A stretch of DNA of 64,000 nucleotides from Algisphaera agarilytica (GTDB taxonomy: Bacteria > Planctomycetota > Phycisphaerae > Phycisphaerales > Phycisphaeraceae): the NCBI RefSeq assembly GCF_014207595.1, contig NZ_JACHGY010000001.1, positions 2,796,836 through 2,860,835 on the forward strand, in the 5' to 3' direction. Both the position numbers and the translations under genes were made by a program. The notes beneath the pieces were generated by a model that saw only the letters and a list, made by a program, of their open reading frames with translations, had not been told where the DNA came from and did no database searches. Of this stretch, positions 29,828-37,934 are shown piece after piece (within the stretch, counting starts at the first letter, position 1; the number at the start of each line of letters is the position of its first letter).

Positions 29828-32584
<2,757 letters not shown>

Positions 32585-33052: not shown

Positions 33053-33159
33053 CTCGGTGACCATAGTGCTGGGGTCACACCCGTTCCCATCCCGAACACG
33101 GCCGTTAAGCCCAGCATGCCGATGATACTGCCACCGCGGGAAAGTAGGTCATCGCCGAG
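33053..33159 (+). rRNA. rrf: 5S ribosomal RNA
   Basis: The segment GGTGACCATAGTGCTGGGG, the conserved CACACCCGTTCCCATCCCGA and the 3' arm AGTAGGTCATCGCCGAG fold into the standard 5S shape, with CTCGGTGA pairing with TCGCCGAG at the ends. End positions are accurate to a few bases. Confidence 0.95.
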
Positions 33160-33163
33160 TTAT

Positions 33164-33200
33164 GAGCCCCACAAGCCTAAAGCTTGTGGGGCTCTTTTTT
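33164..33200 (+). terminator. Terminator of the 23S-5S operon
   Basis: A perfect 13-bp stem (GAGCCCCACAAGC with its complement), 5-nt loop and a run of eight T residues, directly after 5S. Confidence 0.95.
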
Positions 33201-33345
33201 TTGCGCGTCGGTTCTGAGTGCGATGAAACCCCATCATCTAAGCGGGCCGAACTTTATGGATCATTGGGGATGGCAGGGCGGTGGGGCGGTTTGCGAGGAT
33301 AGGACATAACGTGGATACTGCTGCGGTACTGTCACGGATGAAGGT

Positions 33346-33918
33346 ATGGCCAAGAAGCGAACGAAGAAGAAAACTACCTCAAAGCGTAAAAACGTGGAAT
33401 TGTTCGTGCAGACGGTGCAGGAACGCGAAATTCCTGAGGGCACCCCGAACGCGGCACTGATCGAAGCAGCTCCGTTAATCGGGGAGGATCCGTCAAAAGA
33501 GGGGTACATCACCGATTTCATCTCGGGCAAGTCAGTCCGCGACACGCCCGAGGAACGGGAAGCCGTCCAGGTATTTTCGATGGCTCTGGTGCAAGACTAC
33601 GGATATCCGAAGTCACATATCCAAACTCGACCTCAACACCGGGTCCGCAAAAAGCCATCGGACAAGAGCGGCAAGTATCCCGTCGATATCGCGGTGTTTG
33701 GCACCGAGGACCGCAAGGATGATGAGGCCTATATCATCGTCGAATGCAAAAAGAAGAACCGCAAGGACGGGCAGAACCAGCTCGAAGACTACTTGCGTTT
33801 TTCGGCAGCCCGCCTGGGGGTCTGGTTTAACGGCGAAGAGCGGCTCTTTCTCGAAAAAATCGAGGGTCAAGGCAAGGTCACTTTCCGTGAACTGCCGAAC
33901 ATCCCCCGGTACGGGTAA
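33346..33918 (+). CDS. Fragment 1: HsdR_N/PD-(D/E)xK nuclease domain
   Basis: 190 residues with a Lys-rich start and the phrase EGYITDFISGKSVRDTPEER. The candidate nuclease active site is Asp in YPVDIAVF with E-C-K in IIVECKKKN. It stops at TAA directly before RVEDIG, the point where the intact family continues. It could be translated alone, but the methyltransferase would then lack its nuclease partner in cis. Confidence 0.6.
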   Translation: MAKKRTKKKTTSKRKNVELFVQTVQEREIPEGTPNAALIEAAPLIGEDPSKEGYITDFISGKSVRDTPEEREAVQVFSMALVQDYGYPKSHIQTRPQHRVRKKPSDKSGKYPVDIAVFGTEDRKDDEAYIIVECKKKNRKDGQNQLEDYLRFSAARLGVWFNGEERLFLEKIEGQGKVTFRELPNIPRYG

Positions 33919-34113
33919 AGAGTTGAGGATATCGGCCAGTTCCGCCGCCGCGACCTCCGACCGGTCGAGAACCTCAAGCCCATTTTCCGGGCCGTTCGTA
34001 ATTACTTAGCGGCGAACGCTGTAGGGATCACTCGTGATGAAGTTTTCGCCCAACAACTTATCAACCTGATCTTCTGCAAAATCTACGACGAGAGATATAC
34101 CCGGCCGGACCTG

Positions 34114-34500
34114 GTGGTGAAATTCAGGGCCGGGGTGGAAGAGTCGGGCAAAGAGGTGAAGAAGCGTCTGGTCGAACTGTTCGACGAGGTGAAGGCCCAC
34201 TACAAGGACGTGATGGAGGTGGCCGACAAGATCGAACTCGATCCGAAGTCGCTTCGATACATCGTCGGCGAGCTCCAAAACATCTGCTTGACCGAGTGCA
34301 GCCGAGACGCGGTAGGAGACGCCTTCGAGATTTTCATCGGCCCGTCGTTGAAAGGGGGGCAGGGTCAATTCTTCACGCCGCGAAACGTCGTGAAGATGGT
34401 CGTCGATATGGTGGACCCCAAGCGTGGTGAGCGGGTCATCGATCCCGCATGCGGCAGCGGCGGATTCCTAGTCGAAGCCCTCCGTCATGTCTGGAAATAA
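34114..34500 (+). CDS. Fragment 2: HsdM helical domain and SAM motif
   Basis: 128 residues from a possible internal GTG. In-frame coding sequence continues upstream to 33919, so the start is artificial. It includes the helical HsdM region, GGQGQFFTPRNVVKMVVDM and the SAM-binding DPACGSGGFLVEAL, and ends at TAA inside the methyltransferase domain. It would not be active by itself because the catalytic NPPF lies beyond the stop. Confidence 0.5.
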   Translation: MVKFRAGVEESGKEVKKRLVELFDEVKAHYKDVMEVADKIELDPKSLRYIVGELQNICLTECSRDAVGDAFEIFIGPSLKGGQGQFFTPRNVVKMVVDMVDPKRGERVIDPACGSGGFLVEALRHVWK

Positions 34501-34545
34501 GTTGAAGAGTACGGCGATACGTCCGGCTGGCCCACCGAAACCATC

Positions 34546-35262
34546 GTGACCGAAAAGCAGAAGGTAGCCATCGACAACTTCCGTGGTATCGACAAGGATG
34601 ATTTCCTTTCCAAGGTCGCCAAGGCGTACATGGCGATCTTGGGCGACGGACGCGGCGGGGTCTACTGCGGCAACTCCCTGGACTTGCACAAGAACTGGGA
34701 ATCGAAAATGCGGAACTCGATCGGCCTGGGGTCGTTCGATGTGGTAATTACCAACCCGCCTTTCGGTAAGAAGCTCAAGATCGATTCGGAAGAGCTGCTC
34801 GAAGATTACGACCTCGGCCATGCCTGGAAGGAAGGGGATAACGGGGAATTTGAAAAGGGCAAGGTTCTCGACAGCCAACCGCCGCAGATTCTGTTCATCG
34901 AGCGTTGCTTGGACTTGCTCGTGGACGGGGGACGCTTGGGGATCGTTCTGCTCGAAAGCACGTTCGGCATGCCGAAATACCGATACGTCGTCGATTACCT
35001 GACCCGGAATGCCAAGCTGCTGGCAATCGTCACACTACCGGAAGACACGTTTCAGCCGCACACACATGCGAAAACCTGCGTCATCATTGCGGAAAAAACC
35101 AAGCCCTCCAAGCGGCATCCGATTTTCATGTGTGACGTGAAGTGGTGCGGGCACGATTCACGTGGCAACCCGACGATCCGGGTAAACGAAAACGGTGAGC
35201 GTGAGCTGCTCGACGATGTGCCTAATGTCACGGCCATCTACAAAAAGGGGCCGCGTAAGTGA
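34546..35262 (+). CDS. Fragment 3: catalytic half of the N6-adenine methyltransferase
   Basis: 238 residues beginning at a GTG inside the frame. It carries FRGIDKDDFLSKVAKAYMAI, the catalytic motif VVITNPPFGKKL, QILFIERCLDLLVDGGRLGIVL and the end of the Rossmann fold. It ends by overlapping the start of the specificity gene (GTGA, 35259-35262), the usual coupling in such operons. It lacks the SAM-binding motif, which is before the second stop. Confidence 0.55.
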   Translation: MTEKQKVAIDNFRGIDKDDFLSKVAKAYMAILGDGRGGVYCGNSLDLHKNWESKMRNSIGLGSFDVVITNPPFGKKLKIDSEELLEDYDLGHAWKEGDNGEFEKGKVLDSQPPQILFIERCLDLLVDGGRLGIVLLESTFGMPKYRYVVDYLTRNAKLLAIVTLPEDTFQPHTHAKTCVIIAEKTKPSKRHPIFMCDVKWCGHDSRGNPTIRVNENGERELLDDVPNVTAIYKKGPRK

Positions 35263-36734
35263 TCCGCTTCTGGATGAACTCCGACCGGGTACAGGACCGG
35301 GTATTTATCCCGAAGTTCTACGACCCGGAGATCGACACTCATCTCGATCGCTTGCGGCTGACGATGGATTGCCGTTCACTTTCGAACCTAATCGAAGATG
35401 GTTTGGTTTCGGTAGGCACGGGTGATGAAGTCGGAAAGATGGCATACGGCACCGGCGACATCCCGTTTGTGCGGACCTCGGACATCTCGAATTGGGAGCT
35501 GAAAACTGCACCGAAGCAAGGGGTCTCCGAGGACATCTACGACGAGTATGCTGCCAAACAAGACGTACGCACCGGCGACATCTTGATCGTTCGGGACGGG
35601 ACGTACCTGATCGGCACCAACTGTCTGGTTAGCCGAATCGATACCCCGCTCCTGTATCAATCTCACATCGTGAAAATTCGTGTCGAGCGCCCCGACGAAC
35701 TCGATCCAGAGGTGTTGTTTCTGGCGATCAACTCGTCGATCGTACAGCGGCAGTTCCGTTCATTCCAGTTCACGGCAGACATCATCGATACGATGGGCCG
35801 CCGGGTGTACGACACGATCATTCCACTCCCAAAAAATCAATCAAAGGCCAATCGTCTAGGCCGATCGGTTCGTGCGGCGTTGCGGAAGCGGGTTAACGGT
35901 AAGGCGTTCGTGAAGCACTGTGCCCATCTAATCGAGGAAGCCTTGGAGTCGGGCACCACGGAAGCTCTCGAACATTTTGAGGCAATGGATGATGAAGAGG
36001 TGGAAGAGGTTCTCACCCATGAAACCGTGACTTCAGAGTTTGGTGAGTTCGAGGCCTACTGGCGGTATTCGGACAATATCACAAACCACATCTACATCCC
36101 TAGGTATTACGAGCCTTCCATCCAACGCGAACTCGACATACTTGCGGCGACCTGTGATCTAGCCTCAATCGCCGAGTTGGAAGACGCCGGGGCTTTAACG
36201 ATGCAAACTGGCGATGAGATAGGAAAAATGGCCTACGGTACCGGTGATATCCCCTTTATCCGTACGAGCGACTTCGCCAACTGGGAAATCAAGCACAATC
36301 GCAAACAAGGGATATCACCGGCGATTTATCGAGAATACGCTGATAAGCAAGACGTGGCGGCTGGTGACATTTTTTTAGTAAGAGACGGAACGTACTTGAT
36401 CGGAGCGTCCTGCATTATCACCAACGAGGACTCGACGTGCTTGTACAGCGGCGGACTTATCAAACTACGGGCTCTCGATCGGAACCGGCTTGATCCGTAT
36501 CTGCTCTTGGGCTTGCTCAACAGCTACATCGTAAAGCGGCAAATACGAACAAAGCAGTTCACCCGTGATGTGATCGACACTCTAGGACCGCGTTTGGGGG
36601 AAGTGATTCTGCCTATCCCCAAATCGGCCGACCTACGTCACGCAATTACCAAGGCAGTCCGTAAGGTTGTCTCTGAGCGAATTAATGGACGTATTGAGCT
36701 CGTCAAACTCGCAGGTTCTTATGATGACGTTTAG
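35259..36734 (+). CDS. HsdS-like DNA specificity subunit with internal tandem duplication
   Basis: 491 residues in two homologous halves (about 1-195 and 265-460). Each half carries a near-identical signature: TGDEVGKMAYGTGDIPFVRT in the first, TGDEIGKMAYGTGDIPFIRT in the second, followed by a TSD...NWE motif, then KQDV, GDI, RDGTYLIG and an IID/VID-T segment. This is the arrangement of two target-recognition domains in type I and IIB specificity subunits. Because the halves are so alike, a symmetric target is plausible (inference). It is translationally coupled to the broken nuclease-methyltransferase gene. No HsdR translocase gene follows. Confidence 0.75.
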   Translation: MIRFWMNSDRVQDRVFIPKFYDPEIDTHLDRLRLTMDCRSLSNLIEDGLVSVGTGDEVGKMAYGTGDIPFVRTSDISNWELKTAPKQGVSEDIYDEYAAKQDVRTGDILIVRDGTYLIGTNCLVSRIDTPLLYQSHIVKIRVERPDELDPEVLFLAINSSIVQRQFRSFQFTADIIDTMGRRVYDTIIPLPKNQSKANRLGRSVRAALRKRVNGKAFVKHCAHLIEEALESGTTEALEHFEAMDDEEVEEVLTHETVTSEFGEFEAYWRYSDNITNHIYIPRYYEPSIQRELDILAATCDLASIAELEDAGALTMQTGDEIGKMAYGTGDIPFIRTSDFANWEIKHNRKQGISPAIYREYADKQDVAAGDIFLVRDGTYLIGASCIITNEDSTCLYSGGLIKLRALDRNRLDPYLLLGLLNSYIVKRQIRTKQFTRDVIDTLGPRLGEVILPIPKSADLRHAITKAVRKVVSERINGRIELVKLAGSYDDV

Positions 36735-36800: not shown

Positions 36801-37934
36801 TTAAAGATGATTGGTGCGTAGGACTTCGTCGCCGTGGAGCATACCCATGCTCAGGCGTTGGATGAAGCGGTGCCAGGTGTTTTTGGGGTGGGTGCCGGTG
36901 GCGTGGCCGTGGTGGGCGGTGAATTCGGTGGACTCGTAGGTGAGGCCTTGGCCGCCGAATTGTTGTTTGAGGCATTGGCGGCAGGTGAAGCCCTTCGTGA
37001 AAGGCAGGTGTTGATGTTCGATCTGCGAGGTGAGATGTGCGATGTGCTGCGGCGGGAGTTCGGGGGCGAGTTGGTGGAAGTCGAATCTGAGGTAGGCGGG
37101 GAGGGTCATCGGGCGGAAGGGCCAGTAGAGGCGTTGGGCGTGTTGACCGCAGTCGGGGCATTGCCATTCGAAGCGTTCGTATTTTTTGCGGGAGTTGGGG
37201 GGTAGGGATTCGGGGTTGGGGTGGAGCTGGCGGACGGTGCGGTGGAGGGTTTGGGACCAAGCCCCGCCCCCGGAAGTATCTTCGGAAGCGTCTTCTGAAT
37301 TAGCCCCGGAGGTTTTGGGTGTGGGGCATGCGGACTGAGGTCCGCACGCCTGGAGGTGTTGGGGGCGTTGGTGCAGGGATTGGGTGAGGGTGCCCCAGTC
37401 GGCGGACTGGACTTCGGGGATGGGGTGGATGAGGTGTGTGGGCGGCGGGGCGTAGAAGTAGGCGTGGGACCGCGGTGGGTCGCCGGGGTATTTGCCCGAG
37501 CGGGTGGAGGGGCGGGAGAAGGGGTGGTGTTTGATGAGGTGGCCTTGCTTGATGCGGGCGGAGAGGGCTTGGGGGGAGACGCCCAGGCGTCGGGCGATGG
37601 AGGCGCGGGGGAGGCCGGGCGGTTCGAGGGGGATCGGGGCGCAGAGGCGTTGGATTTCGTCGGGGTCGAGGGGAACGGCGCCGGCGGTGTTGTTGTCGTG
37701 GAGGCGGCGGTCGTTGGCGCGGAGGACGAGGGTGAAGGAGCGGAGGGGGCGGGAGGTGGAAGGCGTGGTTTGGTTGTTGACGTGTGTGGGGGACGCGGGG
37801 CCCTTCGGGCCGCCCGCTAAACGGTTGTGTTTGGTGAAGCGGCGGGTGAGTTCGGCGCGGCCTGCGGGCGTGGTGAGGCACGGGGTGATGTGGGTGTCCC
37901 AGGCTTGGAGCAGGGCGGCGTCGAGGGTGTTCAC
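36801..37934 (-). CDS. Zinc-ribbon protein with helix-turn-helix, unknown function
   Basis: 377 residues, rich in Pro, His and Arg. Residues about 109-130 look like a helix-turn-helix (SIARRLGVSPQALSARIKQG). Later a zinc ribbon is formed by CPDCGQHAQRLYWPF and CRQCLKQQF, ending in LTYES. The zinc ribbon/LTYES pattern resembles uncharacterised proteins found near mobile DNA in many bacteria. Codons near residue 40 come from half of a palindromic repeat (37793-37822), adding LAGGPKGPAS in frame. The function is unknown. It converges on the specificity gene. Confidence 0.55.
   Translation of the reverse strand: MNTLDAALLQAWDTHITPCLTTPAGRAELTRRFTKHNRLAGGPKGPASPTHVNNQTTPSTSRPLRSFTLVLRANDRRLHDNNTAGAVPLDPDEIQRLCAPIPLEPPGLPRASIARRLGVSPQALSARIKQGHLIKHHPFSRPSTRSGKYPGDPPRSHAYFYAPPPTHLIHPIPEVQSADWGTLTQSLHQRPQHLQACGPQSACPTPKTSGANSEDASEDTSGGGAWSQTLHRTVRQLHPNPESLPPNSRKKYERFEWQCPDCGQHAQRLYWPFRPMTLPAYLRFDFHQLAPELPPQHIAHLTSQIEHQHLPFTKGFTCRQCLKQQFGGQGLTYESTEFTAHHGHATGTHPKNTWHRFIQRLSMGMLHGDEVLRTNHL
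37793..37822 (-). repeat. Half copy of the GTTTAGCGGGCG palindromic repeat, inside a gene
   Basis: On the minus strand it reads GTTTAGCGGGCG, a small hairpin GCCCG-a-AGGGC, then CCCGCGT: the same layout as one arm of the complete elements at 51478-51564 and 61174-61251. The second arm is absent. It is translated in frame. Confidence 0.7.

Follow-up and report, generated by a model that had tools for sequence, protein, structure and literature searches.

The question raised by this locus is whether a restriction-modification (R-M) gene with two in-frame stop codons belongs to a system that has been lost, or whether the stops are suppressed in the cell or were introduced in the assembly. The gene lies in the window, by which we mean the whole 64,000-nucleotide stretch of the Algisphaera agarilytica genome that was analysed. 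It occupies positions 33346-35262 of the forward strand, a frame of 638 codons in which a nuclease domain, a helical domain and an N6-adenine methyltransferase are fused (RM). Exactly two internal stops were found, both TAA, at codon 191 (33916-33918) and codon 385 (34498-34500), and there are no frameshifts. The stops divide the gene into a first piece of 190 amino acids containing the PD-(D/E)xK nuclease domain (33346-33918), a second containing the helical domain and the start of the methyltransferase (33919-34500), and a third containing the catalytic half of the methyltransferase (34501-35262). The specificity (S) gene (35259-36734, forward strand) is intact and encodes 491 amino acids with two target-recognition halves; its GTG start overlaps the RM stop codon in the sequence GTGA. 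No translocase gene adjoins the S gene. The single frame of about 638 codons, the overlapping HsdS-like gene and the lack of a translocase had all been proposed in a first-pass annotation, and are borne out here.

The R-M locus lies downstream of an rRNA operon, with the 23S rRNA gene at 29828-32584 (Rfam RF02541) and the 5S rRNA gene immediately 5′ of the locus at 33053-33160 on the forward strand (Rfam RF00001, 81.7 bits). A strong intrinsic terminator of the rRNA operon, with a 13-bp stem and a run of eight T residues, sets the R-M locus apart (33164-33202, forward strand). At the same site in relatives the 23S and 5S genes are conserved, and the next downstream gene is not. A search for a sigma-70-like promoter at the locus found none, and no repeats of the kind expected for phase variation or island ends were present beside the stops or flanking the locus. 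On the other side of the S gene, a protein of 377 amino acids is encoded on the reverse strand (36801-37934 of the window); it has no Pfam match and, among 60 related genomes, matches only a few, and those weakly.

When the RM frame was translated through both stops, Pfam assigned residues 75-187 to HSDR_N_2 and residues 319-599 to N6_Mtase. Taken singly, the three pieces matched HSDR_N_2, the motif I half of N6_Mtase and the motif IV half of N6_Mtase respectively. The nuclease active-site region (P112-V-D114 ... E133-C-K135; 33679-33750), methyltransferase motif I (D366-PACGSGG, codons 366-373; 34441-34464) and motif IV (N470-PPF, codons 470-473; 34753-34764) all fall at invariant or nearly invariant columns of the RM alignment, so the motifs are indeed kept across the interrupted frame, as first described. 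Over the whole read-through protein, two of 110 invariant positions are altered, compared with a mean of 0.7 in the other homologues.

To place the system, RM and S were compared with known enzymes. By sequence, the best match of RM in the PDB was RM.BsaXI (E 6e-25; 2.5e-43 with a profile). RM.BsaXI was also the best match of the predicted RM fold (mean pLDDT 81.7), over 658 columns with an E value of 6.8e-26 and a TM-score of only 0.39-0.48. The top fold matches of the predicted S model (mean pLDDT 78.6) were Type I HsdS proteins and S.BsaXI. Sequence, fold and colinear relatives thus back the BcgI-like RM+S architecture suggested by the first-pass annotation, and support the assignment of the locus as a decayed member, by descent, of the Type IIB/IIG BcgI-like kind. 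With two internal TAA codons the locus lacks the uninterrupted coding sequence that a functioning system would have, and membership is therefore by descent only. The locus is a decayed member of a kind that is already known, and loss is an ordinary fate for such genes.

Like BcgI, the Type IIB archetype, which was compared by description only, the window system has a fused nuclease-methyltransferase chain, a separate S gene and no translocase; unlike BcgI, the window copy is broken. The BcgI nuclease domain has been reported to differ from those of other RM+S members in an AlphaFold overlay (PMC11997821). With BsaXI, a Type IIB enzyme of known structure (8w0p, 8w2p and 8w2q), the window system shares the nuclease-helical-methyltransferase order and a separate S subunit with an HsdS fold. 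The significant sequence match to the BsaXI RM is, however, limited to the helical and methyltransferase part (profile positions 181-548), and BsaXI RM has 916 amino acids with a knob and a paddle (PMC11997821), compared with 638 codons in the window. Membership of the BsaXI subgroup (knob and paddle, RM of about 900 amino acids) was rejected on this length and on the model, which is without the long C-terminal antiparallel helix pair. HpyUM032XIII of Helicobacter pylori, a BcgI-like enzyme set beside the window system by description, also combines an RM fusion with S, but in that system a homopolymeric G tract marks a split in S, whereas in the window S is one intact gene, RM carries the stops and there is no repeat tract (PMC4450513). 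A Type I R-M system was rejected since the genome has no HSDR_N gene (PF04313). A MADS system was rejected on the NCBIfam cut-offs, with scores of 385.9 bits for MAD2 (cut-off 720) and 71.4 bits for MAD5 (cut-off 400).

A family scan using one genome per species yielded 65 related loci, of which 49 encode full-length intact proteins that are 47-72% identical to the window RM, indicating homology far beyond chance. In all 49 the nuclease and the methyltransferase share one uninterrupted frame. The position of codon 191 is occupied by Gln in 38 of these proteins and by Glu in 11, and that of codon 385 by Lys in 33, Arg in four, His in three and other residues in nine. The residues named in the first-pass annotation, Gln at the first stop and Lys or Gln at the second, agree with these counts. 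None of the 49 intact homologues is split or stopped at either position, so that the outcome which the annotation had named as contrary to its reading, intact homologues ending there as separate genes, was not encountered. In the 11 closest genome loci and in three loci from viral contigs, RM is followed directly by a full-length S gene (about 490 amino acids), and a Pfam scan of 15 open reading frames flanking the relatives revealed no HsdR or other helicase.

We consider that the locus is a horizontally acquired BcgI-like RM+S operon in which nonsense mutation has inactivated RM, with a probability of about 0.78. In BcgI-like enzymes an RM fusion and a separate S assemble as 2RM:1S, and both are needed for cutting and for marking (PMC3874165, PMC4027205). 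The intact enzyme would accordingly have acted as (RM)2S, with S seating a pair of RM subunits at a bipartite target. Each RM subunit would methylate an adenine, and at unmodified sites the N-terminal PD-(D/E)xK domain would cut the DNA to both sides of the target. The first TAA would leave a free nuclease domain only, lacking the methyltransferase and the contacts to S, and the second would separate motif I of the methyltransferase from motif IV. Given these effects of the two stops, neither cutting nor marking would be expected, and the R-M system is most likely dead. Rescue from elsewhere in the genome would not be expected either: this RM gene is the only one with an N6_Mtase domain and no HSDR_N gene is present, which leaves S with no partner. 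As restriction and modification reside in one polypeptide acting through S, a stop would remove both and leave no unprotected nuclease, and the host should come to no harm from it. The locus would in that case be a clean example of a fused R-M enzyme lost by one stop, presumably harmlessly, with cutting and protective marking going together. There is a precedent in H. pylori, where the Type IIB system Hpy99XXII is listed as found only after repair of a frameshift (PMC3936762).

An error in the assembly or consensus, with the real gene intact and the system active, is an unlikely explanation, though the chief uncertainty about the locus. It would account for the good preservation of the rest of RM, with few invariant positions altered and no insertion or deletion, and for the intact S gene. 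However, both faults are pure substitutions, and errors in long-read consensus sequences are typically insertions or deletions. The genome is assembled in six contigs and is 99.75% complete. Nor would an assembly error raise the divergence of RM relative to S: the ratio of RM to S distance is 0.683 in the window, the highest of 12 systems, the 11 relatives having ratios of 0.54-0.65. This ratio is a modest sign that selection on RM has been relaxed.

The first-pass annotation also raised the possibility that the stops are read through. Low-level readthrough, or the use of TAA as a sense codon, could yield a little full-length enzyme, and the frame does continue beyond the stops with all its motifs. 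Such an explanation is very improbable. No tRNA with a stop-reading anticodon, UUA included, was present among 72 tRNA matches in the genome, and TAA terminates 43 of 133 long open reading frames sampled, showing that it is a normal stop in this host. Because the 49 intact homologues are all free of stops at these two points, TAA is not a conserved recoding signal. A class-II tRNA (L129; G000:C1:320837-320920) was tried as a suppressor and rejected, as it reads CCA rather than a stop; it is 84 nucleotides long and has a long variable arm, and its anticodon loop, TCTGGGA, gives the anticodon UGG for the Pro codon CCA on a Leu/Ser-like body. Elsewhere in the same genome, 28 tRNA genes are arrayed within 8.6 kb (L092; G000:C1:2039855-2048439), largely duplicating the dispersed tRNA set. 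A codon-bias scan of 464 kb for other interrupted genes flagged 115 of 2471 stops, many of them probably in frames that are antisense or open by chance. The scan was set aside, and its count of terminators alone was used.

Equally doubtful is a functionally split gene, in which the pieces would be translated separately by re-initiation and then assemble. The first stop does lie near the boundary between the nuclease and helical domains, in-frame GTG codons follow at 34114 and 34546, and naturally split methyltransferases exist. However, a start at 34114 would forfeit 65 residues of the helical region, no purine-rich ribosome-binding site is evident by inspection at either GTG, the second stop lies inside the methyltransferase, after motif I and before motif IV, and no homologue is divided at these points. 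That the two TAA codons serve as a gate, with rare readthrough or re-initiation supplying traces of enzyme, or the three pieces reassembling, so that restriction is off but recoverable and S is maintained, is a conjecture to which we attach very little weight.

Returning to inactivation by nonsense mutation, three features count against it: S is fully intact, RM has no insertion or deletion, and the decay is below the average expected under neutrality for two stops. In a neutral model that awaits two stops, about 5-7 hits at invariant positions are expected, and two or fewer occur with a probability of about 0.22-0.30. If the absence of any insertion or deletion is also required, at an assumed indel rate of 10%, the probability falls to about 0.04-0.06. 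The small number of altered invariant positions, together with the RM to S ratio, would fit a gene that was inactivated fairly recently, if not in the immediate past. Very recent silencing had been one of the three alternatives offered by the first-pass annotation; recent silencing is the best supported of these, but 'very' goes too far, as RM is already somewhat more divergent than expected.

The composition of the locus differs from that of its surroundings. GC content is about 55% (0.52-0.56), compared with about 63% (0.58-0.68) for neighbouring protein-coding DNA; GC3, at 0.72/0.63, is likewise lower than the 0.81-0.91 of the surroundings. A search of 150 related genomes turned up no close homologue, its best match being 41% identical, and much closer homologues occur in distant phyla. 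The hosts of the closest 11 loci include Clostridiaceae, Lachnospiraceae, Chloroflexi, Rhodobacter, Paracoccus, Palleronia and Thalassolituus, among others. Low GC and GC3, the lack of a close homologue in kin and the presence of closer ones in distant phyla make horizontal acquisition the simple reading of the sequence data.

The two halves of the window S subunit are 47% identical to each other, and the corresponding values in relatives are 42-55%. In an alignment of S from the window and 11 related loci the mean column identity was 68%, recognition halves included. The S subunits of this clade are thus conserved across phyla even in their recognition halves, unlike those of usual HsdS proteins, suggesting that they may share a target. 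Two relatives (L049 and L065) resemble HaeIV-type single-chain RMS enzymes; in each, RM is fused to a single half-S in a chain of 830-855 amino acids. This half-S matches the first and the second half of the window S alike, whereas the window S is a separate gene with two halves. In HpyUM032XIII a single half-S gives the palindromic bipartite motif CYAN7TRG (PMC4450513), and the single-chain enzyme HaeIV has the symmetric site GAYN5RTC (PMC3874165). From the likeness of the S halves, the half-S relatives and these two precedents, we predict that the bipartite target of the window system was symmetric or near-symmetric, in contrast to the asymmetric BcgI site CGAN6TGC. The prediction is testable for the clade on its intact relatives.

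The locus also marks out an RM+S clade that extends across several phyla and is carried by phages, with S subunits that are conserved and internally repeated. A scan of viral contigs yielded three relatives of the R-M pair, none of them the same allele, and some family members are located in phage regions. Two close relatives lie in phage morphogenesis regions, one adjoining a large terminase gene (L027, 4304-9299) and the other preceding a portal gene (L152, 2778-7610). Broken copies are common in the family: at least nine of the 65 related loci are disrupted by frameshifts or stops, each elsewhere in the gene. Relatives on Spiroplasma citri plasmids (including L179) are annotated as separate short pieces, an N-6 DNA methylase and a hypothetical protein, and are possibly broken copies.
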